From: Nonomuraea helvata
GTDB taxonomy: Bacteria; Actinomycetota; Actinomycetes; Streptosporangiales; Streptosporangiaceae
Direction: 5' to 3'
Assembly (NCBI RefSeq): GCF_039535785.1
Contig: NZ_BAAAXV010000008.1
Coordinates: 434,001 to 498,000 of the forward strand
Length of the DNA: 64,000 nucleotides
Under the pieces are notes generated by a model. The model was not told where the DNA came from. It saw only the letters and a program-made list of their open reading frames with translations, and ran no database searches. This document shows positions 3,222 to 64,000 of this stretch, in pieces; within the stretch, counting starts at the first letter, position 1, and every line of letters starts with the position of its first letter. Made by a program: the position numbers and the translations under genes.

Positions 3222-3232
3222 CCGCCTCTCCT

Positions 3233-3272: not shown

Positions 3273-3361
3273 ATTCGTTTCGCGGGTCCTGCGTGACCAC
3301 GGCGAAACCGGCGGGACCTGGCCGATGCTTCCTCTGCGGGCCGTGAACTGGTCGGAGCCTC

Positions 3362-3420
3362 TTGACAGATCAGAATGTATCGATAAAGTTACCTCACTTT
3401 ATCGATACATGGATCGATAC
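3362..3420 (+). promoter_or_regulatory. Promoter with overlapping LacI-type operators of the arabinoside operon
   Basis: TTGACA at 3362-3367 is a consensus -35; TAAAGT at 3384-3389 is a plausible -10 (spacer 16). Overlapping the -10 is a perfect 15-base inverted repeat: ATGTATCGATAAAGT at 3375-3389 and its complement at 3396-3410, separated by six bases. A further ATCGATAC lies at 3413-3420. Each arm contains the TATCGATA core typical of LacI-family sites, so one or two repressor dimers could block RNA polymerase. The likely regulator is the LacI gene at 12703, by proximity only. Confidence 0.75.
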
Positions 3421-3476
3421 AGTGATGCGCCTCACTCCCCCACGTCGCCAGGTCCCCATCGAAGCGAGAACACGCA

Positions 3477-4730: not shown

Positions 4731-5613
4731 CCCGGCGATGAGACGTGCCCTTCGCGCGGCGCCCTTCATCGGCCCGCACCTGGTGCTGTTCGCCGTGTTC
4801 GGTCTCCTTCCCGGCGTGTACGGCCTCTACATCGGCTTCACCCGGTGGAACCTCCTGGGCGACCCCCAGTTCGTCGGCCTGGACAACTTCCACGAGATTC
4901 TGTTCGACACCGAGTCGGTGTTCCACGACCAGTTCGTCAACGGCCTGGTCAACACGCTGATCTTCGTCGCCGTCTCCGTGCCGCTGCTGATCGTGATCCC
5001 GCTGCTGCTGGCCGCCGGGCTGTCGCGCAAGGACCTCAAGGGCGCGGGATTCTTCCAAGGCGTCTTCTACATCCCCGGACTGATCTCGGTCTCGGCCGGC
5101 GCGATCGCCTGGGTCCTGATGTTCAACCGCGAACTCGGACCGCTCAACAACCTCCTGGGCACCGACATCAGCTTCATCACGACACAGCCGTGGGCCTGGC
5201 TGACGATCTTCGTCCTGACCGTGTGGGCCGGCATCGGCGGCAACCTCGTGATCTACCGATCGGCGATCTCCGCGGTACCGCGCGAGCTTCACGAAGCCGC
5301 GCAGATCGACGGCGCGGGCACGGTGCGGCGCTTCCTCAGCGTGACGTTGCCCTCGATCCGGTTCCCCCTGCTCTACACCATGGTCCTCACGACCGTCGGC
5401 AGCTTCAACGTGTTCGGTCAGCCCATGATGCTCACCAAGGGCGGGCCGAACAGCAGCACCAAGGTCCTGATGATGAACATTCGCGACCTCGCCTTCGGTA
5501 CGGGAGCGTCCATCGCCGGGATGGCCGCCGCCATGTCCATGCTGCTCGGAGTGGTGCTGATGCTCATCTCGGCGGTTCAGTTCTCCGTGATGCACAGGGG
5601 GATCCGTGGCTGA
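4723..5613 (+). CDS. Sugar ABC transporter permease, MalF/UgpA type (importer 1)
   Basis: An inner-membrane channel subunit with six predicted transmembrane helices. The first begins around FIGPHLVLFAVFGLLPGVYG. The cytoplasmic EAA loop that docks the ATPase is visible as ELHEAAQIDGAG. The GTG at 4723 overlaps the end of the binding-protein gene and has GGGA upstream; an ATG five codons later (4738) is an alternative. The reading frame stays open further upstream inside the preceding gene, but that part is the binding protein's out-of-frame shadow. The next permease gene overlaps it by eight bases. Confidence 0.9.
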   Translation: MTDPAMRRALRAAPFIGPHLVLFAVFGLLPGVYGLYIGFTRWNLLGDPQFVGLDNFHEILFDTESVFHDQFVNGLVNTLIFVAVSVPLLIVIPLLLAAGLSRKDLKGAGFFQGVFYIPGLISVSAGAIAWVLMFNRELGPLNNLLGTDISFITTQPWAWLTIFVLTVWAGIGGNLVIYRSAISAVPRELHEAAQIDGAGTVRRFLSVTLPSIRFPLLYTMVLTTVGSFNVFGQPMMLTKGGPNSSTKVLMMNIRDLAFGTGASIAGMAAAMSMLLGVVLMLISAVQFSVMHRGIRG

Positions 5614-6487
5614 GTCGACGACAGTGCCGCCGGGCGACGGCGGACGCCTGCGGCGGCGGACGAGTTTGATCATCTGCTACGTCGCGCTGGCCACGCTCGC
5701 CCTGGTATGGCTGCTTCCCATCGCGTACTCGATCGCGACGTCGTTCAAGTCGGCGACCGAGATCGCCTACTCGGGCTTCAGCCTGCTGCCGGCGCACTGG
5801 GTCGCGGAGAACTACGTGACGCTCGTCGAGGGCGCCTCCAGCTATCCGGTGCTCCAGTGGTTCGTGAACTCTCTGGTCATCTCCACCTCGCACGCCGCGC
5901 TCACCGTGGTCGTGGTCGCCCTCGCCGGCTACGGCTACACCCGGATGCGCTTCCCCGGCAGGGACGCTCTGTTCCTGACGCTGCTGGGGATATCCCTGTT
6001 CCCCAGTGTCGTCAACCTCATCCCCTCGTACAAGATCGTGCAGACTCTGGGGTGGGTCAACTCGCCGCTCGCCATGATCATCCCCGGTCTGGCGGGTGTG
6101 GCGAACGTCTTCCTCGTACGCAGTTTCATGGCGGGTGTGCCCCGTGAGCTGGACGAGGCCGCCCGCGTCGACGGGGCAGGTGATTTCCGGATCTTCGCCC
6201 AGGTCATCCTGCCGAGTATCCGCCCGGTCCTCATCGTCGTCTTCCTGTTCTCGTTCACCGGCTCGTGGAACGACTTCCTGTGGCCCACGATCGTGTTCAA
6301 CGACATCGAGCGGATGCCCATCACCGCCGGGCTGCTGCTGTTGCAGAACATGTTCGGCGACTACTCCAAGCTGGGGCAGCTCATGGCCAGCGCCGTGCTG
6401 GCGATGATCCCCACCACGGTCCTGTTCCTGGCGGCGCAGCGTTATTTCCTCAGCTCCCTGAACCTCAACGCCGGTCTGAAGGGATAG
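5606..6487 (+). CDS. Sugar ABC transporter permease, MalG/UgpE type (importer 1)
   Basis: The second channel subunit, 293 aa, with six predicted transmembrane helices starting at LIICYVALATLALVWLLPIA. The EAA motif is ELDEAARVDGAG. The C-terminus RYFLSSLNLNAGLKG is typical of MalG-like permeases. The GTG start lies inside the end of the preceding permease gene. No ATPase gene follows, so the energising subunit must be supplied in trans, probably by an MsiK-like shared ATPase. A small membrane-protein gene follows after four bases. Confidence 0.9.
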   Translation: MAESTTVPPGDGGRLRRRTSLIICYVALATLALVWLLPIAYSIATSFKSATEIAYSGFSLLPAHWVAENYVTLVEGASSYPVLQWFVNSLVISTSHAALTVVVVALAGYGYTRMRFPGRDALFLTLLGISLFPSVVNLIPSYKIVQTLGWVNSPLAMIIPGLAGVANVFLVRSFMAGVPRELDEAARVDGAGDFRIFAQVILPSIRPVLIVVFLFSFTGSWNDFLWPTIVFNDIERMPITAGLLLLQNMFGDYSKLGQLMASAVLAMIPTTVLFLAAQRYFLSSLNLNAGLKG

Positions 6488-6491
6488 ATCC

Positions 6492-6890
6492 GTGCAACGG
6501 CGACTCGAACGGCGGCTCCTGGTGGCCGCAGCCGTCTGGACCGGCCTCCTCGCGCTCGTCACGCTGTTCCCCTACCGGATGTGGTTCGAGCAGGTGGCGG
6601 CCGGTTCCGCAGGCGAGAGTCTGATCGCCGGCGCCTCCGCCGTGGTTGGCGTCTACGGCCTGGTCCTGCTGCTCGTGGCGCTCGTCACCGGCTGGCTGGC
6701 CTGGCGGATCGGCACCCGGCCCGGCGCGGCCGTCCTGTGGTGGGCAGGCGCGTGCGCGGTCGGGGCGCTGCTGACCCGCGATGTCGTCGGCTGCCTGCTG
6801 TTCTCGGTCGTCTGCGCGGTGTACGCGGCCAGGAGCAGGGCGCTGCGCAAGGCCGGTTCCTTCCATCGAACGCAAGGTATTCACAGATGA
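6492..6890 (+). CDS. Small four-helix membrane protein of unknown function
   Basis: I do not recognise a family. The 132 aa contain about four hydrophobic segments ([69 protein letters not shown]) and a basic tail. It is locked into the operon: it starts four bases after the permease stop, and its TGA overlaps the ATG of the arabinofuranosidase gene. That position suggests an accessory role in transport or membrane anchoring of the system. It carries no signature of an ABC subunit. Confidence 0.75.
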
Positions 6891-8404
6891 GCAACAATGT
6901 CGTGCCCGCCATCGTCAATGTCGATGTCGAGGGTCCGTTGATCAGTCGGCATCTGTACGGTCATTTCGCCGAGCATCTGGGCCGGTGCGTCTATGGCGGG
7001 TTCTACGTGGGCGAGGACAGTGACATCCCGAACGCGGGCGGGATCCGGCTGGATGTGGTGGAGGCGTTGCGCGCGCTGAACATCCCGAATCTGCGCTGGC
7101 CGGGTGGTTGTTTCGCTGATGAGTACCACTGGATGGACGGGGTGGGGCCGAAGGATCGGCGTCCGGCGATGGTGAACACGCACTGGGGCAACGTCGAGGA
7201 GAACAACCACTTCGGGACGCACGAGTTCATGGCCCTGTGCGAGTTGCTCGGCGCTGAGCCGTACATCAGCGGCAATGTCGGGTCCGGCACGGTCAGGGAG
7301 ATGAGCGACTGGGTGGAGTACCTCACCCGTGAGGGTGACTCGCCGATGGTGCGGCTGCGTAAGGCCCATGGGCGGGACGAGCCGTGGCGGGTGCGTTTTT
7401 GGGGGCTGGGCAACGAGGCGTGGGGCTGTGGCGGGCACATGACCGCCGGGCAGTACGCTCATGAGGCGCGCCGGTTCGGCACGTACTGCCGTGATCACGG
7501 TGAGAACAAGTTGTACCGCATCGCCGCCGGGGCGAACTCCGATGACTATGCCTGGACCGAGACGCTGATGAAGCAGCTCGGCGACCTGGGCTGCGCCTAC
7601 CGGCCCCAGCCCTTCTACCAGGCGCTCTCGCTGCACTACTACACGATCCCGGGTACCTGGCAGGACAAGGGCGACGCGACGGTGTTCGACACCGGGGACT
7701 ACTACCGGACGCTGGTCCAGGCCGCGCGGATCGACGAGCTGATCACCCGCCATTCCAACGTGATGGACTGCTACGACCCGGGCAAGAACGTGGGCCTGGT
7801 CGTGGATGAGTGGGGCACGTGGTGGAACGTCGAGCCCGGCACCAATCCCGGCTTCCTCTACCAGCAGAACACCCTGCGTGACGCGCTGGTGGCCGGCGTG
7901 CATTTCGACATCTTCCACCGGCACGCCGACCGGCTGGTGATGGCCAACATCGCCCAGACGGTGAACGTGCTCCAGGCCATGATCCTCACCGATCCCGACT
8001 CGGGCGCGCTCGTGCTGACGCCGACGTACCACGTGTTCGAGATGAACAAGGGTCACCAGGACGCGGCCTCGCTGCGGGTCGACCTCCCCGCGGGGGTGCC
8101 CACCCGTGAGACGTTGCAGACCGTCTCGGTCTCGGCCAGCCGCAAGGACGGGCGTGTGCTCGTCTCGCTGTCCAACCTGGACGCGGCCGAGCCGGTCGAC
8201 GTGGACCTGGACCTGCGTGGCGGCGCGGTGGCCGACGTCCGCGCCCGCATCCTGACCGCCGACAAGCCGCAGACCCACAACACGCCCGAGGCGCCCGACG
8301 CCGTCGCGCCCCGCTCCCACCAGCAGGTCACGCCCACCGCCTCCGGGCTTCGGGTCCACCTGCCGGCACACTCCTTCGTCACCGTGGAGGGGCGCCTCGC
8401 ATGA
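6887..8404 (+). CDS. Alpha-L-arabinofuranosidase, GH51 (1)
   Basis: Cytoplasmic exo-enzyme removing terminal alpha-L-arabinofuranosyl groups from imported oligosaccharides. The GH51 (beta/alpha)8 signature regions are present: [30 protein letters not shown], the acid/base motif GLGNEAW (Glu177) and the nucleophile motif VVDEWGTWW (Glu308). A C-terminal beta-sandwich ends at [11 protein letters not shown]. The protein is 505 aa with no signal peptide, so it acts after import. The ATG at 6887 overlaps the previous stop, and its own TGA overlaps the next ATG (ATGA). The first 600 bases use visibly more T/A-ending codons than the rest of the gene and its neighbours. Confidence 0.92.
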
Positions 8405-10683
8405 CCGCGCACGAACGCATCACCATCGACGTCGGGGCCCAGCAGGGCGTCGAGGTCGCCCCGGACCTGTGGGGACTGTTCATCGAGGACCTCAACGACG
8501 CGCTCGACGGAGGCCTGAACGCCGAATGCCTCCGCAACGGCGACTTCGAGTTCAACGCCGCCGACCGGGACGGCTGGGACGCGCTGACCGCGTGGAGTGC
8601 CGATGTCGCGGATCGGGTAGAGGTCCGCACCGATGCCCCGATCCATCCGAACAACGCGCACTACCTGCGCCTGACCGGGCCCGTGACCCTGGTCAACGAA
8701 GGATGGGACGGCACGGGCACCAGCGACGGGCAGGGCTTCCTGCTCTCGTTCTTCGCCCGCGCCGGAGCGGAACCGGCGCGCCTGACGGTCACCATCGGCT
8801 CGAACGGCGGCAGCCTTGCCCGCGCACAGGTCATGGTGCCGGCCGGCGGCTGGCACCGCTGCGAGACGACCCTCACCGCGGTCGCCGACGGCCGGGGCCG
8901 GCTGCACATCGAGATCCCGGCGGGACTCGTCGTCGACCTCGATCATGTCTCACTGCGGCCGACCGGCCCAGGCGGTGAGCCGCTGACCTTCCGGCCCGAC
9001 CTGCTCCAGGCGCTGAAGGACCTGTCGCCGAGCTTCATCCGCTTCCCCGGCGGCTGCGTCGCGCACGGGCTCGGCCTGGACAACATCTACCACTGGAAGA
9101 CCACGATCGGGCCGCGCCACGAGCGGGCCCAGATCCCCAACTCGTGGGGCTACCACCAGTCCCGGCAGATCGGCTACCTGGAGTACTTCGAGCTGTGCCA
9201 GGCCACCGGAGCCACGCCGCTCCCGGTGGTCGCGGCCGGAGTGTGCTGCCAGAACTACCCGGGCGGCGCTCAGGCGATCGCCGACGACGCCATGGACGCC
9301 TACATCCAGGACGTACTCGACCTCATCGAGTTCGCGAACGGGTCGGCGGACACCCTGTGGGGCGCGCGCCGTGCCGCGCTCGGCCATCCGGAACCGTTCA
9401 GGCTGCGCTACCTTGGGCTGGGCAACGAGGACGAGATCACCGACGATTTCCGCGACCGCTACGCACGCATCGAGGACGCCGTACGCGGCCGCCATCCGGA
9501 GATCTGCGTGATCGGCACGGTCGGGCCCCAGCCCTTCGGCCCCGACTTCGAGGCCGGTTGGGCGTTCGCCCGCGCCCGCGGCACTGCCATGGTCGATGAG
9601 CACGGCTACCGCAACCCGCGCTGGTTCCACCAGAACGTCGACCGTTACCGCACCTACGAGCCCGGCCCTCAGGTCTACCTCGGGGAGTACGCCGCGCGCA
9701 GCAACACCCTGCGCTCCGCCCTGGCCGAGGCCGCCTACATGATCGGCCTGGAGCGAAACCCCGGCGTGGTGCGGCTGGCCTCCTACGCACCCCTCCTGGC
9801 CCGGGTCGGGCACGCTCAGTGGACCCCCGATCTGATCTACTTCACCGCCACCGAGGTGTTGCCCTCGGCCTCCTACCACGTCCAGGGCATGTTCTCCCGT
9901 GAACGGGGGACCAGGCTCCACCCCGTCACGCTCGGCGGCGTCGAACCGGAGCCCGTGACGCTGCCGGAGACCGGCTCGGTACGGCTGATGTCGCAGGGCG
10001 CGAGCGTCGACTACGCCGACATCGTGCTCGACGGCCTCGTACGGCATCCTGTGACCACCGACCCGGGCGGAGAACCCGTGGAGCTCGGCGGCATCGACCC
10101 CGCCGCGGCCACCCTCGAGCTCACCGCCACCAGACGGGCGGGCGACGAGGGGTTCGTCGTCGAACTCGGCGGTGACAGCTACCTGCAGGTCCACGTCGGA
10201 GCCTGGCAGAACAGATCCACCCTCGTGATACGCGGCGACGACGGCATCACCAACGACGATCACGGGCCGCTGCACTGGCACGGCGTGCGCACGGGCATCC
10301 CGGTGCGCGTCAGAGTACGCCTGGACGGTGCGCGCGTACGCGTGTGGATCGACGGCGAACTGCGGCACGACTACGAACAGGACCTGCGGCCCGAGCACCG
10401 GGTGGTCGCCGGCGCGGCTTCGCGGACGGCGGCCGACGGGACCACCGAGTACGTGATCCGTGTGGTGAACGCCCATCCCACCGCCCGCGTGGCGACGATC
10501 CGACTCGCCGAACCGCTCGAGCAGACGGTCGCCACGGTGACGACGCTCGCCGGTGCGAACCCCGACGAAGGACAACCCTTCACCGCATCACCCGTGGCAC
10601 CGGTCGTCATCACGACCGGCGGCGACACCGTGGACCTGCCGCCCTGGTCATTCGTCACTGCTGTCGTCAGGAGCATTCCTTGA
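8401..10683 (+). CDS. Multidomain GH51 alpha-L-arabinofuranosidase with CBM-like insert and LamG-like tail
   Basis: A 760-aa relative of the large GH51 enzymes. It begins with a GH51-type strand ([20 protein letters not shown]) interrupted by a CBM4/9-like beta-sandwich at about residues 50-185. The catalytic barrel follows ([21 protein letters not shown]; acid/base in GLGNEDE, Glu343; nucleophile in LGEYAAR, Glu429) and then the GH51 C-terminal sandwich. A LamG/DUF1080-like segment (about residues 570-670, [11 protein letters not shown]...[13 protein letters not shown]) sits near the end. No signal peptide is seen, so it should be cytoplasmic. The ATGA overlap couples it to the preceding GH51. 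Having two different GH51 types in one operon suggests linkage-specific debranching. Confidence 0.9.
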
Positions 10684-12614
10684 TCATCGAAACCGGTCCG
10701 CAGGAGATCCTGCACGTCGAACCGTGGGGCCCGCACGCCTTCCGGGTCCGCTCCGCACCGCACGCGATCAGGCACGACCTGCCCGGCGCGCTCACCACTC
10801 CACCCGCCGGGGCCCGCCCACAGCAGCGGGGGAGCACCATGGTGAACGGCCGGATCACCGCCGAGGCGGAGGCCGGGCGCCTCCGCTTCTTCCACACCGA
10901 GACCGGCAGGGAACTGCTCGCCGACAAGCAGCCCTACGTCTGGCATCAGGGGCCGCGCGTGCACGCTCCGCTCGGAGACGGCGGCTACCGCATCGAGCAG
11001 CACTTCCGCGCCTACGACGACGAACGCATCTACGGTCTGGGCCAGCACCAGCACGGCCTGCTGGACCAGAAGGGCTGCGTGCTCGACCTCGTCCAGCGCA
11101 ACACCACCACGACCATCCCGTTCCTGTTCTCCTCCCGCGGATACGGGCTGCTGTGGAACAACCCCGCGATGGGCAGGGTGGAACTGGCACACGACGCCAC
11201 CCGCTGGGTGGCTGACTCCGCCCATCAGATCGACTACTGGATCACGGCCGGCGAATCGCCGGCCCAGATCATGGCGAGCTATGCCGACGCCACGGGCCAC
11301 GCCCCCCTCATTCCGGATTGGGCGGCCGGGTTCTGGCAGAGCAAGCTGCGCTATCGCACACAAGCCGAACTCCTCGCCGTGGCCAGACGCCACAAGGAGC
11401 TGGGCCTGCCGCTTTCGGCGATCGTCGCCGACTACTTCCACTGGGAGCGCATGGGGGACTGGAGCTTCGACCCGGAGTTCTGGCCCGATCCGCAGGCGAT
11501 GGTCAAGGAGCTCGACCAGCTCGGCGTCAAGCTGGTGGTGTCGGTCTGGCCGACCGTGGAAGCCGACAGCGACAACTACCCCGAGATGCGCGCGGCCGGG
11601 CACCTGGTGAGCAGCGTGGAGGGTGGCCTGCTCACCCAGGACTGGCCGGCCAAGGGACGGGGCGAGAGCTTCGTACCCTCGGCCTACTACGACGCGACCG
11701 TCCCCGACGCCCGGCGCAAGCTCTGGCGGGAACTCCGTGAGCACTACTTCGACCTGGGCGTGGAGGCGTTCTGGCTGGACGCCTGCGAGCCCGATCTGAC
11801 CCCGCGCAGGGCGGAGCAGGCGCTGTACGGGGCCGGCCCGGGACGGCAGGTCGGCAACATGTACGGCCACTACCACGCCCGCGGCCTCCACGACGGCCTG
11901 ACCGAGGCGGGAGTCGCGCGGCCGCTCTCACTCGTCCGCTCGTGCTGGGCGGGCAGCCAGCGGTACGGCGTGGCCCTGTGGTCGGGAGACATCCGGCCCA
12001 CCTGGGACGCGTTGGCCACTCAGGTCCGCACCGGTCTGAACGTCGCACTCAGCGGCATCCCCTGGTGGAACAGCGACATCGGCGGCTTCCACGGCGGCGA
12101 TCCCTCCTCGGAGGAGTACCGGGAGCTGATGATCCGCTGGTTCCAGTTCGGTACGTTCTGCCCGATCATGCGCCTGCATGGGGTACGCGAACCGTCCGGT
12201 CCGTTCACCGCCGGGCAGACCGGAGCGGACAACGAGGTCTGGTCCTACGGCGAGCGCGCCTACCAGATCTTCCGCGAGCACCTGTTCCTGCGCGAACGGC
12301 TCAAGCCGTACCTGATGAGGCTCGCCGAGGCCGCGCACGAGCGGGGCGAGCCTGTGCTGCGCCCGCTGCTGTTCGACTTCCCCGGCGACGAACGGGCCTG
12401 GGCCGTGGACGACCAGTTCATGCTCGGCCCGGACCTGCTGGTCGCGCCCGTGCTGGCCCCCGCGGCGGCCGGTCGGAGCGTCTACCTGCCCCAGGGCACG
12501 CGCTGGGTGGAGCTCGCCACCGGTGACGTCTACGACAGCGGCACCATCGAGGCCGCCACTCCGTTGGAGCGCATCCCGGTGTTCGTCCGCGAGGGCAGTG
12601 ATTGCCTTCTGTGA
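10680..12614 (+). CDS. GH31 alpha-xylosidase/alpha-glucosidase
   Basis: A cytoplasmic retaining alpha-glycosidase of 644 aa. The N-terminal beta-sandwich runs to about residue 200. The barrel carries the GH31 nucleophile in FWLDACEPD (Asp367) and the acid/base in VALWSGDIRPTW (Asp437), followed by the substrate-site motif PWWNSDIGGF. DACEPD resembles YicI-type alpha-xylosidases more than maltases, so alpha-xylosidase is preferred, but specificity is not certain. The start is a TTG overlapping the previous TGA, supported by AGGAG at 10669-10673. The frame extends upstream only as a shadow of the GH51 gene. Together with the GH51 enzymes it suggests xyloglucan- or arabinoxylan-type oligosaccharides. 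Confidence 0.88.
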   Translation: MIIETGPQEILHVEPWGPHAFRVRSAPHAIRHDLPGALTTPPAGARPQQRGSTMVNGRITAEAEAGRLRFFHTETGRELLADKQPYVWHQGPRVHAPLGDGGYRIEQHFRAYDDERIYGLGQHQHGLLDQKGCVLDLVQRNTTTTIPFLFSSRGYGLLWNNPAMGRVELAHDATRWVADSAHQIDYWITAGESPAQIMASYADATGHAPLIPDWAAGFWQSKLRYRTQAELLAVARRHKELGLPLSAIVADYFHWERMGDWSFDPEFWPDPQAMVKELDQLGVKLVVSVWPTVEADSDNYPEMRAAGHLVSSVEGGLLTQDWPAKGRGESFVPSAYYDATVPDARRKLWRELREHYFDLGVEAFWLDACEPDLTPRRAEQALYGAGPGRQVGNMYGHYHARGLHDGLTEAGVARPLSLVRSCWAGSQRYGVALWSGDIRPTWDALATQVRTGLNVALSGIPWWNSDIGGFHGGDPSSEEYRELMIRWFQFGTFCPIMRLHGVREPSGPFTAGQTGADNEVWSYGERAYQIFREHLFLRERLKPYLMRLAEAAHERGEPVLRPLLFDFPGDERAWAVDDQFMLGPDLLVAPVLAPAAAGRSVYLPQGTRWVELATGDVYDSGTIEAATPLERIPVFVREGSDCLL

Positions 12615-55799: not shown

Positions 55800-55826
55800 T
55801 TCACAGTTTATGCTCTAGCCGTGAAC
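55800..55826. promoter_or_regulatory. Candidate ROK operator between divergent genes
   Basis: GTTCAC (55800-55805) and GTGAAC (55821-55826) form an inverted repeat with 15 bases between. The right arm includes the MFS start codon. The core is A/T-richer than the surroundings (AGTTTATGCT), as expected for an operator-promoter region. Confidence 0.5.
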
Positions 55827-57056
55827 AAAATCCCCCTTGATGCCAGACGTGCCCGTATCGGAGTGTTTGGATTCTTCTTTCTCGCCGGATTCGTCATGGG
55901 TCTGTGGGCCGCCGGGCTCCCGTCCCTGAACGACCGGCTCGACCTGGGCTTCGCCAGGCTGGGCAGCGTCCTGCTGCTGATCTCCGGCGGCGCGCTGGTG
56001 TCGATGCTGGTGGCCGGGCCCCTGGTGGACCGGTGGTCGAGCCGCCGGGTGTGCTGGATCGGCGGCCCCTTCTCCGGGCTGGTGCTGCTCGGGCCCGCGC
56101 TGGCGCCCTCGTACTGGGCGCTGGTGGTGCTGGCGGTGGTGTTCGGGATCGGGCTGGGGGTGACCGAGGTCGGCATGAACACCCACTCCGTCGAGGTCGA
56201 GCGCCGCTACGGCCGCCCGATCATCTCGGCCTTCCACGGCACGTGGAGCCTGGGCGGCGCGGCCGGCGGCGGCCTCACCTCGCTCATGCTCAAGGTGGGT
56301 GTGGATCCCCAGTGGCTGCTGATCGTGGCGGCGCTGGTGGTGCCCTTCCTGTACGTGGCCGCGGCGCGCCTGCTGCTGCCCGACCCGCCCGCGCATGCCT
56401 CCTCGCCGGAGCCGGGCGCCACCCGGGGCTCGTCGCTGGGCTGGGGGCTGATCGCGCTCCTGGGCCTGGCCGCCTTCGCCGGCCACCTGAGCGAGGGCGC
56501 CGCCATCGACTGGGCCGCGCTGCACGCCCGTTCTGTGCTGCGGACGGATCCCGCGATGGCGCCGCTCGCGTACACGATCTTCTCGGTCGCCATGACCTCC
56601 ATCCGCCTGCTCGGTGACCCGATCAGGGCCCGCCTCGGCTCGGTGCGCACCATCCAGCTCGCCGGCCTCCTCGCCACGGCCGGCTACGTCCTGGTGCTGG
56701 CGTCGCCGGCGACCGGCGAGCTGCGGGTCGTCTGCGCCTGGACCGGCTGGGCCCTCGCCGGTGTGGGTCTGGCCACGGTGGTCCCGGTCCTGTTCAGCGC
56801 GGTCGGCGCCGTCGGCGGGCGGGTGGGGCGCGCGCTGGCCATGGTGACGGCCTTCGGTTACAGCGGCCTGCTCCTGGGGCCCGCGGTGCTGGGGTACGTG
56901 GCGGAGGCGTCCTCGCTCCCGATCGCGCTGATCATCCCCGCGGTCCTGGCCGCCGTCGTGAGCCTCACCGGCGCCCCCGCGATCCGCTCCCTGACCCGCC
57001 TCCCGCCCGCCGCCGCCGACGTGGGCGATCCCGCCCCCGCCAGCGCCCGCGACTGA
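55821..57056 (+). CDS. MFS transporter (sugar/multidrug type)
   Basis: A 411-aa major-facilitator protein with about 12 helices. The N-terminal half starts VFGFFFLAGFVMGLWAAGLPS and carries the inter-helix 2/3 motif LVDRWSSRR. VTEVGMNTHSVEVERRYGRP and SAFHGTWSLGGAAGG are typical of the FucP/YfcJ-like group. The C-terminus has an acidic/proline tail. The GTG start overlaps the inverted repeat shared with the ROK gene. Substrate unknown; the ROK pairing suggests a sugar or an efflux role linked to sugar status. Confidence 0.87.
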   Translation: MNKIPLDARRARIGVFGFFFLAGFVMGLWAAGLPSLNDRLDLGFARLGSVLLLISGGALVSMLVAGPLVDRWSSRRVCWIGGPFSGLVLLGPALAPSYWALVVLAVVFGIGLGVTEVGMNTHSVEVERRYGRPIISAFHGTWSLGGAAGGGLTSLMLKVGVDPQWLLIVAALVVPFLYVAAARLLLPDPPAHASSPEPGATRGSSLGWGLIALLGLAAFAGHLSEGAAIDWAALHARSVLRTDPAMAPLAYTIFSVAMTSIRLLGDPIRARLGSVRTIQLAGLLATAGYVLVLASPATGELRVVCAWTGWALAGVGLATVVPVLFSAVGAVGGRVGRALAMVTAFGYSGLLLGPAVLGYVAEASSLPIALIIPAVLAAVVSLTGAPAIRSLTRLPPAAADVGDPAPASARD

Positions 57057-57176: not shown

Positions 57177-57188
57177 GTAAACGTTTAC
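57177..57188. promoter_or_regulatory. LacI-type operator O1
   Basis: GTAAACGTTTAC is a perfect 12-base palindrome with the central CG step typical of LacI-family sites. It is repeated identically 23 bases downstream. Confidence 0.85.
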
Positions 57189-57199
57189 GGCAGTTGATC

Positions 57200-57211
57200 G
57201 TAAACGTTTAC
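57200..57211. promoter_or_regulatory. LacI-type operator O2
   Basis: A second perfect GTAAACGTTTAC, 23 bases centre-to-centre from O1 (about two helical turns) and 22 bases before the LacI start. Two dimers would lie on the same face of the helix, so cooperative autoregulation is likely. Confidence 0.85.
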
Positions 57212-57233: not shown

Positions 57234-58271
57234 GTGGCCGACGGACCGACGATCAACACGATCGCCGAGCGCGCCGGTGTCTCGATAGCCTCCGTCTCGC
57301 GGGTGCTGAACGGCCTGCCGACCAGGCAGGAGACCGTGCGCAAGGTGATGGCCGCCGCCGACGAGCTCGGCTACGTGCGCAACGCCGTGGCCAGGTCGCT
57401 CAAGTCGCGCCGCACCCACCAGGTCGCCTTCGCCATGGCCGATGTCGGCAACCCCGCCTACCTGGCGATGCTCCGTCAGATCCAGCCCGTGCTGAAGGCC
57501 GCCGGGTACCGGCTCGTGCTGCACTCCACCGACGCCGTCGTGGCTGACGAGATCGACGTGCTGCACAGCCTGGGGGAGCGGTACGTGGACGGGCTGATCA
57601 TGAGCCCGCTGCGGGTCACCGAGGCCCACCTCGAGATGCTGGCCGCCGCCAGGGCACCCGTCGTGATCATCGGCTCGGTGCCCGACGGCACCCGCGTGGA
57701 CAACGTGCGGGCGGACTCGCGGACCGGCGTCCGGCTGGCGGTCGATCATCTGTACGCGCTCGGCCGCCGCAGGATCGCCATGGTCAACGGCCCGCTGGAC
57801 ACCGTCCCCGGCGCCTCCCGCGGTGAGGCCTACCGTGAGGCGCTGCGGGACCTGGGCGTGCCCTACGACGAGAACCTCGTGCAGATCGGCGACTTCTACC
57901 GCGCGGAAGGGGGCCGCGCGGTGGCGGAGCTGCTCGCCAGGGTCCCCGACGTGGACGCGCTGCTGTGCGCGAACGACCTGATCGCCCTGGGCGCGCTCGA
58001 CGTGCTGCGGGCCGCGGGGCGCCGGGTGCCGGACGACGTGGCGGTGGTCGGCATGGACGACACCGACCTGGCCGCCGCCTCCTGGCCCGCGCTGACCAGC
58101 GTCTCGCTCGGGTCCGCCGAGCGCGGCAAGGCCGCCGCCGAGCTGCTGCTCGAACGGCTGCAGGGTGGCGATCGCGAGCCAAGGCTGGTCACCGTCCCGC
58201 CCCGACTCGTGATCCGCGCCTCCACCGCCGGGGAGTCGGCGGAGTCGGCAGACGAAAGGGAGAGAGCGTGA
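57234..58271 (+). CDS. LacI-family regulator of the importer-4 / ADP-ribosylglycohydrolase operon
   Basis: A 345-aa regulator with the DNA-binding domain TINTIAERAGVSIASVSRVLN and hinge YVRNAVARSLKSRRT. The effector domain has QVAFAMADVGNPAYLAML, GRRRIAMVNGPLDTVPGA and VAVVGMDDTDLAAAS. The GTG start is at 57234. It is the first gene of the operon it probably controls; its TGA overlaps the GTG of the first permease. Being encoded ahead of the transporter under twin operators implies negative autoregulation. The effector should be the imported compound or its breakdown product. Confidence 0.9.
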   Translation: MADGPTINTIAERAGVSIASVSRVLNGLPTRQETVRKVMAAADELGYVRNAVARSLKSRRTHQVAFAMADVGNPAYLAMLRQIQPVLKAAGYRLVLHSTDAVVADEIDVLHSLGERYVDGLIMSPLRVTEAHLEMLAAARAPVVIIGSVPDGTRVDNVRADSRTGVRLAVDHLYALGRRRIAMVNGPLDTVPGASRGEAYREALRDLGVPYDENLVQIGDFYRAEGGRAVAELLARVPDVDALLCANDLIALGALDVLRAAGRRVPDDVAVVGMDDTDLAAASWPALTSVSLGSAERGKAAAELLLERLQGGDREPRLVTVPPRLVIRASTAGESAESADERERA

Positions 58272-59182
58272 CGGCGACCGTGACGAGACCGGCGCCGCCG
58301 CGGGGCACGCGGCGCGCCCGCCGCCGGGTCCCGCGCCAGACGCGCGAGATGTGGCTGCTCATGCTGCCGGCCCTGGTGCCGGTGGCGCTGTTCAGTGTCG
58401 GCCCGCTGCTGTACGGCATCGGCCTGGCGTTCACCGACGCCCGCAACACCCGCGTCCACGAGACGAGCTTCGTCGGCCTCGAGAACTTCGGCAGGCTGCT
58501 GACCGACGACGAGTTCTGGTCCTCGTTCAAGATCGGCGCGATCTGGAGCGTCTCCGTGACCGTGCTGCAGTTCCTGGCCGCGCTCGGCCTGGCGCTGCTG
58601 CTCAACCAGAACCTGCGCTTCAGGAGCGTGGCAAGGGTGCTGGCGGTGGTGCCGTGGGCGATGCCGCCCGTGGTCATCGGCCTGATGTGGAAGCTCGTCT
58701 ACCACCCCGACGCCGGCATCCTGAACGACCTGCTGGGCACGGACGTCAACTGGCTGGCCGACTTCTCGCTCGCGCTGCCCGCGATCATCGTGGTCGGCGT
58801 CTGGACCGGCATGCCGCAGACCACGGTGGTGCTGCTGGCGGGTCTGCAGGGCATCCCCAAGGAGCTCTACGAGGCGGGCGAGGTGGACGGCGCGACCCGC
58901 TGGCGGCGGTTCTGGAACATCACGCTGCCGCAGCTGCGGCCGGTGGTCGTGGCGATCACCTCGCTCGACTTCGTGTGGAACATCAACCAGTTCGGCCTGG
59001 TCTACGTGCTCACGCAGGGCGGGCCGGGCGGGCAGACGCGGCTGCCGATGCTGTTCGCGTACGAGGAGGCGTTCAGGTACCGGATGGCCAGTTACGCCTC
59101 GATGCTGGGCCTCGCCATGGCGATCGTCGTGCTCGCCGTGCTCGGACTGTACCTGTGGCGCCAGATGAGGGAGGCCAAGTGA
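58268..59182 (+). CDS. Sugar-type ABC transporter permease, MalF type (importer 4)
   Basis: A 304-aa permease with a strongly basic N-terminus (PRGTRRARRRVPRQTREM), helix 1 WLLMLPALVPVALFSVGPLL and EAA loop ELYEAGEVDGAT. The GTG start overlaps the LacI stop. The frame extends upstream inside the LacI gene without meaning. Its stop overlaps the next ATG by one base. Confidence 0.9.
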   Translation: MTATVTRPAPPRGTRRARRRVPRQTREMWLLMLPALVPVALFSVGPLLYGIGLAFTDARNTRVHETSFVGLENFGRLLTDDEFWSSFKIGAIWSVSVTVLQFLAALGLALLLNQNLRFRSVARVLAVVPWAMPPVVIGLMWKLVYHPDAGILNDLLGTDVNWLADFSLALPAIIVVGVWTGMPQTTVVLLAGLQGIPKELYEAGEVDGATRWRRFWNITLPQLRPVVVAITSLDFVWNINQFGLVYVLTQGGPGGQTRLPMLFAYEEAFRYRMASYASMLGLAMAIVVLAVLGLYLWRQMREAK

Positions 59183-60000
59183 TGAGGCGTGTCCCGCAGT
59201 ACGCGGCGCTGGTCGCGTACATCGTCTTCCTGGCGTTCCCGCTGGTCTGGCTGCTCTCGACGGCGCTGAAGACGCCGCGGGAGATGGCCATGGCCGACCC
59301 CACCTGGATCCCGCGCGACCCGACGCTGGCCAACTTCGCCGACGCGTTCGGCGAGCAGGACCTGGTCGGCGCGGCGCTGCGCAGCCTGGTCGTGGCGCTG
59401 TTCAGCAGCGTGCTCACGGTGCTGGTCTCGCTGCCCGCCGCCTACGCCATGGCGCGCTACCGCGGCCTGCTCAACAAGATCGCCATCGGGTGGGTGCTGG
59501 TCAGCCAGGTGTTCCCGTTCATCCTGATCATCATCCCGCTCTTCATGATCATGCGTGACCTGGCGCTGGTGAACACGCTGCCCGGCCTCGTGCTGGTGCA
59601 CGTGACGTTCACGCTGCCGTTCGCGCTGTGGATGCTGCAGGGATACGTGCGGGCGGTGCCGCGCGAGCTGGAGGAGGCCGCGGCCGTGGACGGCGCGACC
59701 CGGCTGCGCTCGATCGCGAGCGTGGTCGCGCCGCTGCTCGCGCCCGGCGTGGTGGCCACGCTGCTGTTCTCGTTCATCTCGTCGTGGAACGAGTTCATGT
59801 TCGCGCTCGTCATCCTGCAGAACCCGGATGTCATGACGCTCCCGCTCACGCTGGTGAGGTTCACCGGCCCGGAGGGGGTGGCCAGGCTCGGCCCGCTGGC
59901 CGCGGCGTCGCTCATGGCGACGATCCCGAGCCTGATCTTCTTCGCAATCATTCAGCGGCGACTGAAGTCCGGCCTGATGGCCGGCGCCGTGAAGGGCTAG
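59182..60000 (+). CDS. Sugar-type ABC transporter permease, MalG type (importer 4)
   Basis: A 272-aa permease with six predicted helices (first YAALVAYIVFLAFPLVWLL) and EAA loop ELEEAAAVDGAT. ATG at 59182 shares a base with the previous TGA; a GTG one codon earlier is equally placed. The C-terminus RRLKSGLMAGAVKG is standard. The binding protein follows nine bases downstream, behind AGGAGG. No ATPase is encoded. Confidence 0.9.
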   Translation: MRRVPQYAALVAYIVFLAFPLVWLLSTALKTPREMAMADPTWIPRDPTLANFADAFGEQDLVGAALRSLVVALFSSVLTVLVSLPAAYAMARYRGLLNKIAIGWVLVSQVFPFILIIIPLFMIMRDLALVNTLPGLVLVHVTFTLPFALWMLQGYVRAVPRELEEAAAVDGATRLRSIASVVAPLLAPGVVATLLFSFISSWNEFMFALVILQNPDVMTLPLTLVRFTGPEGVARLGPLAAASLMATIPSLIFFAIIQRRLKSGLMAGAVKG

Positions 60001-60009
60001 GAGGCTCAT

Positions 60010-61314
60010 ATGCGAATCAGGTCCGCTCTGGCGGCTGCGGCGGTCCTCACGCTCGCCGCCGCGTGCAGCGGGGGAGGCGGCGGCGAGTCGTCGGCCGCCC
60101 CCAACGAGCCAGTCAAGATCAATTTCCTCAGCCTGGCGTGGCAGAAGGAGTCACTCGCCGCGAACAAGCAGCTCGTGGACGAGTGGAACAAGGCCAACCC
60201 GAAGATCCAGGTCACGTACGTCCAGGGCAGCTGGGACAACGTCAACGACCAGCTCGTCACCCAGTTCGCCGGCGGCACGGCGCCCGACGTCATCCACAAC
60301 GACTCGCCCGCGCTGGCCGGCTTCTCCTCCGACGGCTACCTCCTCGACCTCAAGGACAAGCTGCCCGCCGAGCTCAAGAGCGACATCCCGCAGGCCGCCT
60401 GGGACACCGTCACCTTCGACGACGGCAAGGGCCGGCAGGGCGTGTACGGCGTGCCGTTCCTGCAGGAGTCGCAGGTCATCATCGCCAACAAGAAGCTGCT
60501 CGACGCCTCCGGCGTGCGCGTGCCGACGTCCGACAACCCCTGGACGTGGGACGAGTTCTCCGCCGCGGCCAAGAAGATGACCAAGGACGGCAATTTCGGC
60601 GTGGCCTGGCCGATGAAGTCGCCGGTCAACAAGACGCTCAACCTGGCGCTCAACTTCGGCGGCACGTTCTTCCAGACGGCCGACGGCAAGACCACGGTCA
60701 AGGTCGGCCCCGAGGAGCGCGAGGTGCTCCAGCGCATCCACGACCAGCTCTACAAGGACAAGTCCGCCGACCCGGCCGCGCTCGGCCAGGGCACCGCCGA
60801 CCCGCTGCCGGCCTTCTACAAGGGCAAGTTCGCGCTGCTGCCCGCGGGCGTGTACCTGCGCCAGCAGGTCGCCGAGCAGGCCCCGGACGGGTTCGAGTGG
60901 GTCACGCTCCCGGCGCCGAAGGGCACGAGCGCCCAGCAGGGCGCGGTCTCGCAGACGCTCTCGATCGCGCAGGAGAGCAAGCACCCTGACGAGGCCATGA
61001 AGTTCATCGCGTTCTTCCTGAACGGCCAGAACCAGGCCAAGCTCGCCAAGGGAGACTGGCTCCTGCCCACCTCCCAGACGGCCGCCGCCGACCCGGCGAT
61101 GACCACCAAGGAGAACGGCTGGGACGTGGCCACCGCCTCCGCCAAGAATCTCGTCGTGGCCCCGTTCCTCAAGGTGAACGGGTTCGACGAGTGGAAGAGC
61201 AAGGTGGCCACGCCGGTGCTGCAGGAGTACTTCGGCAATAAGATCACCATCGACCAGGCGGCCTCGAAGCTGGTCGAGGACGGTAACAAGGTGTTGGAGC
61301 GGTACCAGCGGTGA
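60010..61314 (+). CDS. ABC transporter substrate-binding lipoprotein (importer 4)
   Basis: A 434-aa solute-binding protein with a lipobox (LAAAC, Cys19) and Gly-rich linker. Landmarks are VKINFLSLAWQKESLAANKQ, PDVIHNDSPALAGF and YGVPFLQESQVIIANKKLL. The ATG is preceded by GAGGCTCAT, with AGGAGG at 60000-60005. The following genes are not glycosidases but ADP-ribosylglycohydrolase-family enzymes, the first starting inside this gene's stop. The ligand may therefore be a riboside or ADP-ribose-like compound rather than an ordinary oligosaccharide; this is inference. Confidence 0.9.
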   Translation: MRIRSALAAAAVLTLAAACSGGGGGESSAAPNEPVKINFLSLAWQKESLAANKQLVDEWNKANPKIQVTYVQGSWDNVNDQLVTQFAGGTAPDVIHNDSPALAGFSSDGYLLDLKDKLPAELKSDIPQAAWDTVTFDDGKGRQGVYGVPFLQESQVIIANKKLLDASGVRVPTSDNPWTWDEFSAAAKKMTKDGNFGVAWPMKSPVNKTLNLALNFGGTFFQTADGKTTVKVGPEEREVLQRIHDQLYKDKSADPAALGQGTADPLPAFYKGKFALLPAGVYLRQQVAEQAPDGFEWVTLPAPKGTSAQQGAVSQTLSIAQESKHPDEAMKFIAFFLNGQNQAKLAKGDWLLPTSQTAAADPAMTTKENGWDVATASAKNLVVAPFLKVNGFDEWKSKVATPVLQEYFGNKITIDQAASKLVEDGNKVLERYQR

Positions 61315-62279
61315 ATTTCCGCGACAGAGCCCGGGGGTGTCTGCTCGGCCTCGCCGCCGGCGACGCCCTCGGAGCCCCGGCCGAGAACCTGCCGCCGTCG
61401 GAGATCCGGCGGCGGTGGGGCCGGCTCACCGAGATCGAGGGCGGGGGGACCGATGACACCGAGTACGCCATCTTCGCCGTGTCCCTGCTGCTCCGGCACG
61501 GGCACGCGCTGACGTACGCCGACGTGGCGGCCGCGTACCGGCGGGAGGTCATCCCGCGGGTCACCGGGCCCATGCGCGGGGCCGGGTTCTCCGAACTGGG
61601 CACCGTCGAAGCGCTTCGCCGCGGCCTGGAGCCCCCGTTGACCGGGCTCGTGCACTCGCACGGATGGTCGGACGGGCTCGCCATGCGCGCGGCCCCGTAC
61701 GGGATCTTCTGCCCGGGGGATCCCGCGGAGGCGGCCCGGCTGGTGGAGCAGGACGGGCTGGTCAGCGCGTCCGGCGAGGGCATCACGGGCGGCCGCGCGG
61801 TCGCCGGGGCGGTGGCCGCCGCGATGGGCGGCGCCTCGGCGGAGGACGCGGTGCGGGCGGCGCTGTCGGTGATCCCCGCCGACTCGTGGACGGCCCGCAA
61901 CGTCGTACGCGCCTGCGCCGTCCTCGGCGACCCCGGCGCGGCCGACGCGGACGGGCTGGTCGAGGCGCTGCACGAGGCCGTGGTCGTCAAGCACTACCCC
62001 TGGACCGACGTGGCCCCCGAGGCCGTGGCGCTGGCGTTCGCGGCGGTGCTGGCAGGCGGCGGCGACGTCGAGGCGTCCGTGACGTTCGGGGTGAGCCTGG
62101 GCCGCGACGCCGACACGATCGGCGCCATCGCCGGGGCCGTCGCCGGAGCCATCCGGGGAGAGCGCGGCGTGCCCGAGCGCTGGGCGGCCAGGATCGGACC
62201 CGTGACAGGCAAATGCCTGCCCGTCGTGGCCGGAAAGCACGTGCTGGACGTCGCCGACGAACTGGCGGGAGGACTGTAG
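61311..62279 (+). CDS. ADP-ribosylglycohydrolase-family enzyme 1 (complete metal site)
   Basis: A 322-aa member of the DraG/ARH superfamily, which hydrolyses N- or O-ribosyl bonds at a two-magnesium site. The metal-binding elements are complete: LGLAAGDALGAPAEN (Asp18, Glu25), GGGTDDTEYA (Thr47-Asp48-Asp49) and the C-terminal GRDADT (Asp266, Asp268, Thr269). No signal peptide is present, so it works on imported substrate. The GTG overlaps the binding-protein TGA (GTGA). Real substrates of such operon-borne homologues are unknown; ADP-ribosyl groups, nucleosides or other ribosides are possible. Confidence 0.9.
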   Translation: MNFRDRARGCLLGLAAGDALGAPAENLPPSEIRRRWGRLTEIEGGGTDDTEYAIFAVSLLLRHGHALTYADVAAAYRREVIPRVTGPMRGAGFSELGTVEALRRGLEPPLTGLVHSHGWSDGLAMRAAPYGIFCPGDPAEAARLVEQDGLVSASGEGITGGRAVAGAVAAAMGGASAEDAVRAALSVIPADSWTARNVVRACAVLGDPGAADADGLVEALHEAVVVKHYPWTDVAPEAVALAFAAVLAGGGDVEASVTFGVSLGRDADTIGAIAGAVAGAIRGERGVPERWAARIGPVTGKCLPVVAGKHVLDVADELAGGL

Positions 62280-62285
62280 ATCACC

Positions 62286-63296
62286 ATGTCGGGGGAGAGA
62301 ATCAGGGGGGCCTTCGCCGGGCTCGCCGTCGGTGACGCCGTGGGCTGGCCCGCGGCCAGGCACCGGGCGGCCCTGCACGCCCCCTGGAGCAGGCGCCTGC
62401 ACAGAGAGCTGGACGCGTTCGCCGAGGACCACCGGGTGACCACGCTGCCGGTCCCGTTCGCGCTCAACCAGCCCACCGCCCCGCTGGCCGTCGGTCCGTC
62501 CGACGACGCCGAGTGGCTGGCCTGGACGGTGCTCACGATCGACCGCCCGAGGGCCGAGGCGTTCAGGGAGCTGCTCGACGGCGGAACGTCCAGGATCCGC
62601 GAGGGAGTGCGGGCGCGCATTTCGGTGGCCACCGCGCTCGACAACCTGGCCAAGGGGGTCGAGCCGCCCGCGTCCGGGCGCGACAACCCGCACCACTTCG
62701 ACGACGCCGCCGCCGTCAGGGCCGTGGCGTTCGGGGCGCTGGGGAGGGACCCCACACAGGACGCCCAGGTGACGAACGCCTACGACGGCGTCCTGGGCGC
62801 CCAGGCCATGGCCGCCGCCGTGGCCGAGGCCGTGGCGTCGGGATCGGCGGCGGCGGCGGTGGAGGCGGCGCTGGCCGTACTGCCCGAAGACACCGCCATC
62901 GGCCACAACGCCCGCCTGGCGCTGGCCGCCACGAGGGAGGCGGGTGACCCGTTCGCGGCCGTGCCCGCGCTCGACGCCGCGCTCATCGACCACGTCTACA
63001 GCTACGGCGTGGGCGCCGCGCAGACCGTGCCGGTGGCGCTGGCGCTGGCCGAGGCGGCGGGCGGCGAGCTCGCCCGCGCCGTGCCCGCGGCGGCCTGCCT
63101 GGCCGCGCTGGCCGACTCGGCGCCCGCGCTGACCGGAGCGCTGGCCGGAGCCTGCGGCGGGTATGCCGCGATCCCCGAGTGGTGGATCGCCTCGGCCCGC
63201 ACGCTGGCCGGTTGCTGCCTGCCTGACCTGGCGGGCCAAGATCTGATCGAACTAGCGAGCAATCTCACGAGCAATCTCACGGAGGGAATCGCATGA
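62286..63296 (+). CDS. Degenerate ADP-ribosylglycohydrolase-family protein (probable pseudoenzyme)
   Basis: A 336-aa homologue with the same start (IRGAFAGLAVGDAVGWPAAR), but the catalytic glutamate after GDAxG is replaced (Ala24 region). The TDD motif is PSDDAEW (Ser72-Asp73-Asp74), and the C-terminal DxDT is absent, reading LADSAPALTGALAGACGG. With at most half of the ligands it should not hold two metals. The reading frame is clean, so it is maintained, perhaps as a structural or regulatory subunit of its neighbours. The ATG has GGGGGAG-like sequence upstream; its TGA overlaps the next ATG. Confidence 0.85.
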   Translation: MSGERIRGAFAGLAVGDAVGWPAARHRAALHAPWSRRLHRELDAFAEDHRVTTLPVPFALNQPTAPLAVGPSDDAEWLAWTVLTIDRPRAEAFRELLDGGTSRIREGVRARISVATALDNLAKGVEPPASGRDNPHHFDDAAAVRAVAFGALGRDPTQDAQVTNAYDGVLGAQAMAAAVAEAVASGSAAAAVEAALAVLPEDTAIGHNARLALAATREAGDPFAAVPALDAALIDHVYSYGVGAAQTVPVALALAEAAGGELARAVPAAACLAALADSAPALTGALAGACGGYAAIPEWWIASARTLAGCCLPDLAGQDLIELASNLTSNLTEGIA

Positions 63297-64000
63297 CGCC
63301 GCTTGAGGACAGGGCCACTGGCTGCGTGGCGGGGGCGGCGGTCGGTGACGCGCTGGGCGGCGCCACCGAGGGCTGGACCCCCGAGCAGATCGTCGAGAGG
63401 TACGGAGGGCGCGTCGAGGGCGTCGTGCCGCCGTTCAACGAGGACTGGCGCAACGCCCGCCCCATCGCCCCGTACCACAAGGGCGACGGCCACATCACCG
63501 ACGACACGTTGATGACGCACGCCCTGATCCGCGTGTACGAGAAGGCCGGCGGGCACCTGGACGCGTACGCGATGGCCGACCACCTGGTGCCGGAGCTCAT
63601 GGGCGAGCGGCGGTGGATCCCCGAGCTGGAGGCCGAGGCGCTGCCGCTGCAGCGGATCTTCCTGGCCGAGAAGTGGATCGTGGCCAGGCTGCACTACGGG
63701 CACGTGGACCCGCGCGAGGCCGGCACCGGGAACATCGTGAACTGCGGCGCGGCCATGTACGTCGCCCCCGTCGGCATCGTGAACGCCGCCGACCCCGACG
63801 CCGCCTACGCCGAGGCCATCGACCTGACCGGGGCCCACCAGTCCAGCTACGGCCGCGAGGCCGCCGGGGTCATGGCCGCCGCCGTGGCCGAGGCCATGCG
63901 TCCGGGCGCCACCGCCGACTCCGTGGTCGCGGCGTGCCTGCGGCTGGCCAAGGACGGCACCAGGGCCGCCATCGAGTCGGTCTGCGAGGCCGCCGCCGGG
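63293..64000 (+). CDS. ADP-ribosylglycohydrolase-family enzyme 2 (3' end beyond window)
   Basis: The first 236 residues of a third family member. The N-terminal metal site is complete: GAAVGDALGGATEG (Asp19, Glu26) and HITDDTLMTH (Thr69-Asp70-Asp71). GTGNIVNCGAAMYVAPVGIVN and QSSYGREAAGVMAAAVAEAM are the expected central helices. The C-terminal DxDT lies outside the window. The start ATG overlaps the previous stop, with GGAGGG at 63281-63286. It is clearly distinct from enzyme 1 (longer insertion after TDDT with WRNARPIAPYHKGDGH), so the two active copies probably have different specificities. Confidence 0.88.
   Translation, partial: MTPLEDRATGCVAGAAVGDALGGATEGWTPEQIVERYGGRVEGVVPPFNEDWRNARPIAPYHKGDGHITDDTLMTHALIRVYEKAGGHLDAYAMADHLVPELMGERRWIPELEAEALPLQRIFLAEKWIVARLHYGHVDPREAGTGNIVNCGAAMYVAPVGIVNAADPDAAYAEAIDLTGAHQSSYGREAAGVMAAAVAEAMRPGATADSVVAACLRLAKDGTRAAIESVCEAAAG

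Follow-up and report, generated by a model that had tools for sequence, protein, structure and literature searches.

Bacterial DraG/ARH genes are usually discussed as erasers of ADP-ribosylation. But what are four of them doing in a row in an operon with a sugar importer and a ribokinase? This is the arrangement entered by the end of a 64,000-nucleotide stretch of DNA from the soil bacterium Nonomuraea helvata (contig NZ_BAAAXV010000008.1, positions 434,001 to 498,000; the whole stretch is called the window here), and its four ARH-family genes are named ARH1 to ARH4 in gene order. A Bacteroides ribose utilisation locus, in another phylum and with another uptake system, reportedly holds ribokinases, a nucleoside hydrolase and an ARH-family gene and scavenges ribose from ribosides. 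Escherichia coli yegTUV resembles the Nonomuraea operon in joining an importer, an ARH and a sugar kinase under a single-target repressor, but its importer is a nucleoside symporter of the major facilitator superfamily (MFS), it has one ARH, its GntR regulator senses ADP-glucose and the available text names no inactive partner (PMC10819704). Streptomyces coelicolor was described as having eight uncharacterised DraG/ARH homologues, of which four are consecutive as in our operon, SCO2028-2031 (PMC9411070); an earlier paper on the species gave seven homologues and called the larger number of hydrolases surprising (PMC5087735). The hydrolases DraG, ARH1, ARH3 and Tri1 have their fold and two-metal motifs in common with the ARH1, ARH3 and ARH4 of the operon, whose ARHs differ in scoring below the DraG and Tri1 equivalog cut-offs and in a context that reads as catabolic rather than signalling. 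As for inactive members, vertebrate (human) ARH2 is suspected to be one, like the ARH2 discussed here (PMC7050489), and structure titles list possibly non-catalytic ARH folds among the chains of the Ycf2-FtsHi motor and of a precursor of the trypanosome mitoribosome. The kind of system is known, since sugar operons with glycosidases and inactive ARHs both exist; the variant is new, and the open-licence literature, in the result lists partly viewed, gave no description of this operon or pathway. To our knowledge, none of these possibly non-catalytic ARHs is the operon-encoded partner of an active sister.

On balance, we think it probable that the genes form a LacI-controlled operon for the uptake and breakdown of a ribose-containing glycoside, in which ARH1 and ARH2 work as a heteromer. 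The ATP-binding cassette (ABC) importer would take up the ribose-containing compound. ARH1, bearing the two-metal site, would join ARH2 in an active/inactive heteromer, and ARH2, whose fold is kept along with probably one metal site (the Mg-A half), would have a structural, substrate-recruiting or allosteric role. ARH3 and ARH4 would be further active hydrolases, perhaps for other linkages in the same compound, and RbsK would turn the freed ribose into ribose 5-phosphate. The order of the genes, the motifs lost and kept, the co-occurrence, the selection, the predicted fold and the operator sites are observed here; the substrate, the heteromer and the roles of the single ARHs are our inference. 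The complete operon has nine genes (LacI, permease, permease, binding protein, ARH1, ARH2, ARH3, ARH4, RbsK); the window, which cuts it, holds the first seven in this order on the + strand.

57234..58271, + strand: LacI-family regulator (lacI), probably autoregulated and local (PF00356, PF13377; nearest NCBIfam model RbsR, 189 bits, under its cut-off of 382)
58268..59182, + strand: ABC sugar permease 1 (PF00528, 91.2 bits)
59182..60000, + strand: ABC sugar permease 2 (PF00528; GlcU/MalG-like, under the NCBIfam cut-offs)
60010..61314, + strand: substrate-binding lipoprotein (PF01547, SBP_bac_1, 137 bits; lipobox by eye)
61311..62279, + strand: ARH1, DraG/ARH-family hydrolase with intact metal motifs (PF03747, 186 bits)
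62286..63296, + strand: ARH2, catalytically defective ARH paralogue (PF03747, 82.5 bits)
63293..64000 in the window and to 64432 beyond it, + strand: ARH3, ARH-family hydrolase with intact motifs (PF03747, 167 bits)
64429-65778, outside the window: ARH4, 449 residues (PF03747, 169 bits)
65775-66659, outside the window: RbsK ribokinase, a PfkB kinase (TIGR02152, 313.7 bits)

All four ARHs exceed the gathering cut-off of PF03747 (ADP_ribosyl_GH), 26.2 bits. Throughout the operon, genes overlap or are separated by at most 9 bases. The six junctions among the window genes are three stop-start overlaps of 4 bases (lacI/permease, binding protein/ARH1, ARH2/ARH3), one overlap of a single base and two gaps, 9 and 6 bases long; past the window, reading of the downstream sequence gives ARH4 and then the ribokinase, each joined by a 4-base overlap. 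These coordinates bear out the tight joining of regulator, permeases, binding protein and ARH genes noted in a preliminary description made from the window's letters, whose count of three ARH genes is right for the window but one short for the operon. Two PF00528 permeases and an SBP_bac_1 protein make up a sugar ABC importer; none of the nine genes encodes its ATPase, and importers of such a type are known to share a common ATPase. Elsewhere in the 11.26 Mb genome there are three other PF03747 genes.

Is this arrangement more than an accident of one genome? We collected 141 loci by similarity to ARH2 from three sources. A family sample of 150 genomes, searched with ARH2 at E 1e-10 or better, gave matches in 40, the window's own included, and from these a set of 41 loci was built: the window's own plus 40 stretches drawn from 38 genomes, the other 39 less G003. 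The best 80 of 292 relatives in a scan of named genomes came from Nonomuraea, which supplied the nearest named relatives, and from Streptosporangium, Sphaerisporangium, Sphaerimonospora, Microbispora, Nocardiopsis, Marinitenerispora, Streptomonospora and Allokutzneria, with 52 loci from Streptomyces. A class sample of 394 genomes gave ARH2 profile matches in 67 and ARH1 matches in 63, and 20 further stretches were taken from it, picked for their distance from Streptomyces; four of the 67 (G163, G291, G390, G500) match weakly only and are taken as cross-matches to other ARHs. Streptomyces and Nonomuraea dominate the collection, in which nine loci are second copies of the same record and 131 ARH2 rows are distinct. 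All nine genes are present in 23 of the 41 family-search loci, the window's own included, and the block recurs in many genera, so the arrangement is more than chance, and the gene order that the preliminary description expected relatives to share is indeed conserved. A short form (LacI, importer, ARH3, ARH1, ARH2, CoA-transferase, lyase) stands at 3080-12323 of locus L198, a stretch of 44.7% GC from a genome of 1.3 Mb, possibly that of a freshwater actinobacterium; ARH4 and RbsK were not detected in that stretch, and an ARH2 match occurs in 4 of 121 genomes of its family.

Within these blocks two genes stay together. In 135 of the 141 loci ARH1 is followed on its strand by ARH2 with no other reference gene between them, and in the remaining six a contig end interrupts the locus. 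The 135 include three fusions, each a single open frame with a linker: L108 from Allokutzneria and L116 and L134 from Streptomyces. Among the 132 unfused pairs the spacing between the ARH1 stop and the extrapolated start of ARH2 is at most 50 bases in 88 and at most 150 in 101. The class sample agrees, with a separate ARH2 match in 62 of the 63 ARH1 genomes by a count read by eye from match tables (the ARH2 match in G220 is a fragment); in the exception, G454, the ARH1 match begins 27 bases from a contig end. The pair also recurs without ARH3 in other operons: with RpiR/SIS genes and another importer in L063, with a divergent LacI and an importer in L068-L070, L072-L074, L201 and L206, and with PfkB, UPF0261 and phosphoenolpyruvate (PEP)-hydrolase-like genes in L071. 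It is thus the stable unit.

Two of these operons have features of their own. In L063 (1359-9782) the pair lies in an operon with the RpiR and SIS-domain genes, and a BadF-type kinase gene adjoins on the opposite strand, which suggests an amino-sugar context. In L071 (2516-6654) the company of the related pair also includes a xylose-isomerase-like gene, and a related pair occurs with a divergent ARH4-like gene (L071 and L190 being the loci concerned), perhaps another unnamed sugar route.

Why regard ARH2 as inactive? In human ARH3, Thr76, Asp77, Asp78 and Asp316 bind Mg-A, and Asp314, Asp316 and Thr317 bind Mg-B; the D314A variant is reported to lose Mg-B and keep Mg-A, to bind ADP-ribose 44-fold more weakly and to be without activity on serine mono-ADP-ribosylation (serine-MAR) (PMC8141533), and the ARH3 glutamate is described as crucial for activity (PMC7050489). 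The catalytic ligands in our alignment (flap Glu, T/S-D-D and DxDT/S) were counted in rows of at least 200 residues for ARH1 and ARH2 and at least 250 for ARH3 and ARH4, the ARH1 rows taking in distant pair members. They are complete in ARH1 (135/135), ARH3 (128/128) and ARH4 (128/128), the last with a D-D-D motif in which Asp replaces the first Thr. ARH2 lacks the ligand set of a competent ARH: none of the 140 rows has the first Asp of DxDT, which corresponds to human Asp314, and 137 lack the flap Glu; the three that have the Glu (L073, L074, L206) belong to a distant clade. What the preliminary description said of ARH1, that all metal motifs are there, holds in every row, and the ARH3 motifs that it found intact at the N-terminus are joined by an intact C-terminal one beyond the window. 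Its dead middle copy needs a correction. The ARH2 of this operon has Ala24 for Glu and Leu275 for Asp, but the loss of the whole DxDT motif was overstated, as Asp277 and Ser278 remain; Ser72, Asp73 and Asp74 are also retained. Of the 140 rows, 139 keep the two Asp of the first motif and the second Asp of the last, and no row lacks the final Ser. Because the DD pair and the last Asp-Ser are retained, one of the two metal sites could survive, and ARH2 would look like a natural double mutant with its Mg-A half left.

Neither decay nor sequencing error accounts for these losses. The median ratio of nonsynonymous to synonymous substitution rates (dN/dS) is 0.247 for ARH2 and 0.234, 0.198 and 0.248 for the active copies (136 pairs among 17 Nonomuraea-group loci), so purifying selection on ARH2 is similar to that on its active sisters; together with residue conservation this rules out a decaying copy, and the same losses in 131 distinct sequences rule out an error of sequencing. 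The AlphaFold model of ARH2 (mean predicted local distance difference test score, pLDDT, 86; predicted template modelling score, pTM, 0.89; low confidence at residues 25-32, 53-67 and 237-241) has the full ARH fold, matching mouse ARH3 with Z 28 and a root-mean-square deviation of 2.9 over 273 residues. To judge from these sequences, ARH2 is a maintained inactive copy. The clean inactive copy beside an active one, as first described, has proved to be the rule in relatives (135 of 141 loci), and constant genomic pairing with purifying selection, two marks of a pseudoenzyme partner, are both found in ARH2. ARH2 may thus serve the active ARH1 as a partner subunit. A tree of the ARH proteins, proposed at the outset, recovers ARH3 and ARH4 each as a supported clade but, with its long branches, does not settle the branching of ARH1 and ARH2; one of the genome's three further ARHs (L006) is not included in it.

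Could ARH2 still be an enzyme, one with an altered one-metal chemistry that acts on the released sugar, for example as a lyase, transferase or isomerase? For each of His26, Arg27, Asp73, Asp74, Glu76, Asn134, Tyr238, Asp277 and Ser278, conservation reaches 138 of 140 rows or more, which seems more than a bare scaffold needs, and the alignment shows the Mg-A ligands in place. Against this, the ARH2 of L199 has lost most metal ligands, nearly its whole metal site, and the pair is kept there; moreover, single metal-ligand changes in human ARH3 are reported to abolish serine-MAR hydrolysis (PMC8141533). We regard such an enzyme as unlikely, and continue with ARH2 as the inactive member of a heteromer.

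The next question is the substrate, for which family membership alone would point to ADP-ribosylation. If the ARHs undid ADP-ribosylation of proteins or nucleic acids, in signalling, detoxification or toxin immunity, they would act as the S. coelicolor DraG homologues have been described. Human ARH1 and ARH3 have a conserved His that contacts the pyrophosphate (PMC6309922), and in our alignment the position matching the TTH of a Thermus homologue presumably corresponds to it. The ARH1 of this operon has Ala there, though His stands there in 98 of 135 ARH1 rows; at positions matched by eye it is present in 128 of 128 ARH4 rows (an LTH/LSH motif), in 12 of 140 ARH2 rows (128 have another residue) and in 0 of 128 ARH3 rows, where a His stands two residues on (TGAHQ/AGAHQ in the commonest rows). 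The His data thus limit the argument against ADP-ribose to the ARH1 of this lineage and to ARH2, and ADP-ribose-like substrates may apply to ARH3 or ARH4. None of ARH1 to ARH4 reaches the equivalog cut-offs of DraG (TIGR02662; best 66 of 337 bits) or Tri1 (NF041672; 49 of 490), and these shortfalls with the Ala speak against ADP-ribose itself, which the preliminary description had named as a possible import. SCO2028 and SCO2030 are reported to have no detectable activity on uracil-linked ADP-ribose (PMC13036486), one negative substrate that does not exclude others. With a sugar importer, a LacI regulator and a ribokinase in the same operon, we hold an erasing role to be most improbable. A PADLOC search of ARH1 to ARH4 gave no match at E 0.01, and an anti-phage defence role was set aside on this result. 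Import of ADP-ribose followed by Nudix processing was also rejected: a Nudix gene, which the preliminary description thought a fitting neighbour, lies next to this operon but occurs in 4 of 141 loci only, two of them the same record, and looks accidental. One of these, at 10175-10939 of L008, directly follows RbsK on the opposite strand and is probably unrelated.

The downstream genes bear on the substrate more directly. A catabolic riboside route had been proposed with a check of what follows the window, and what follows is a ribokinase: RbsK passes the TIGR02152 equivalog cut-off of 299.65 bits here (313.7) and in Allokutzneria L108 (304.6), the third protein tested, from L200, falling below it (265.7). 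Of the 17 solved-structure matches listed for RbsK, 16 are named ribokinase. The presence of this kinase in the operon supports ribose as the product and a riboside as the substrate. Or are the ARHs glycosidases for another sugar, the compound being no riboside and the ribokinase-like gene acting on a ribose-like product? The importer, presumably of class CUT1, is of a kind common for oligosaccharides and glycosides, and among the nearest solved structures of its binding protein several carry the name of a sugar or oligosaccharide binder (the top one, Lmo0181, is an unnamed protein). The L200 score counts on this side, and the company of the related pairs, RpiR/SIS/BadF-type in L063 and PfkB, UPF0261 and PEP-hydrolase-like in L071, is not ribose-specific. 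In eight loci examined a protein of about 640-690 residues, glycosidase-like in a low-confidence model only, stands between RbsK (ARH4 in L059) and a CoA-transferase; it has a C-terminal formylglycine-generating enzyme (FGE)-sulfatase domain in the three tested (L187 13030-15030, L200 3569-5635, L059 12081-14171), and its model (mean pLDDT 55.6) has a barrel-like N-terminal part whose GH13-like barrel matches are a hint only. On the other side are the ribokinase scores above cut-off in two lineages and the ribosyl bonds on which the characterised ARH enzymes are described as working (PMC7050489). We find another sugar rather doubtful, and keep to the ribose-containing glycoside.

Several points weigh against the ribose-glycoside heteromer scheme as a whole. 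In 31 of the 132 unfused pairs 155-797 bases separate ARH1 from ARH2, enough for a gene without a reference to hide. The putative heteromer is argued from how the genes pair and from three fusions, of which two come from similar Streptomyces, and the L199 copy indicates that half-site retention in ARH2 is not universal. In 49 of the 52 Streptomyces loci the stretch examined is without a LacI, permease or binding protein of this kind (5 of the 49 end at a contig edge there), so the importer is not a constant part of the block. RbsK, detected in 105 of the 141 loci, was undetected in 36, some of which have all four ARHs. We know of no assay or ligand for these proteins.

What else could the compound contain? 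A family III CoA-transferase gene lies on the same strand in 92 of the 141 loci, 88 of which also have an HpcH/HpaI-type (citrate-lyase-like) lyase, and gaps in the Streptomyces and Allokutzneria blocks are mostly a few tens of bases or fewer. Two proteins were tested, and both stay far under the cut-offs of their nearest named models (247 of 750 for succinate-glutarate CoA-transferase and 164 of 375 for itaconate C-C lyase). This company hints at an organic-acid aglycone, and a riboside of an organic acid would fit the company of genes, its sole basis. In the window's own genome the orthologues form a separate pair (L215 7643-9759, on contig C8 near 1.01 Mb; CoA-transferase 66% and C-C lyase 58% identical), adjoined by a GntR-type gene identified by eye; they are therefore a lead and not part of the operon. 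As a tentative extension, less probable than the ribose-glycoside operon itself, we propose an undescribed pathway for a ribosylated hydroxy-acid. The ARH1/ARH2 heteromer, ARH3 and ARH4 would free ribose, passed by RbsK to ribose 5-phosphate, and an organic acid, which the CoA-transferase would activate and the citrate-lyase-like enzyme split to acetyl-CoA and a 2-oxo acid. It would occur in several actinobacterial families, with the short form in the 1.3 Mb genome.

Regulation appears to be local. Two copies of the palindrome GTAAACGTTTAC stand directly before lacI, 23 bases apart from start to start.

57177..57188, no strand: operator 1, palindrome GTAAACGTTTAC (exact 12-mer, genome search)
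57200..57211, no strand: operator 2, palindrome GTAAACGTTTAC (exact 12-mer, genome search)

The exact 12-mer occurs twice in the 11.26 Mb genome, both times at this operon, with 5 more sites at one mismatch, and 75 of the 76 lacI-bearing loci scored have a core RAACGTTY in the 250 bases preceding lacI (at least two copies in 46). Since the operator is confined to the operon and the core precedes lacI in relatives, the operon is probably regulated locally, by its own LacI through these predicted sites. An MFS-like transporter gene, recognised by eye, occupies 55821-57056 and ends 177 bases before lacI, with the twin operator in between.

How does this bear on Streptomyces? Its loci have four consecutive ARHs, and in most of them RbsK and the CoA-transferase (also the lyase) come next. 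By this gene order SCO2028-2031 should be ARH1 to ARH4, SCO2028 and SCO2030 being the likely ARH1 and ARH3 orthologues; this putative match also leans on the S. coelicolor numbers of the flanking genes, which by eye resemble gltD, gltB, a VIT1-like gene, lgt and trpA. In print these four are uncharacterised hydrolases, and the available text mentions no operon, ribokinase or inactive member (PMC9411070).

The substrate would be a nutrient of many actinobacteria that is not named in the literature found. The pair is also a clean, testable case of an inactive enzyme retained beside its active sister, with natural fusions, in workable Streptomyces. More broadly, a conserved sugar operon with four ARHs offers another reading of DraG/ARH genes, the digestion of nutrients. 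If the ribosylated hydroxy-acid pathway is true, catabolic glycosidases, not erasers of ADP-ribosylation, would account for several of the surplus Streptomyces DraG homologues.

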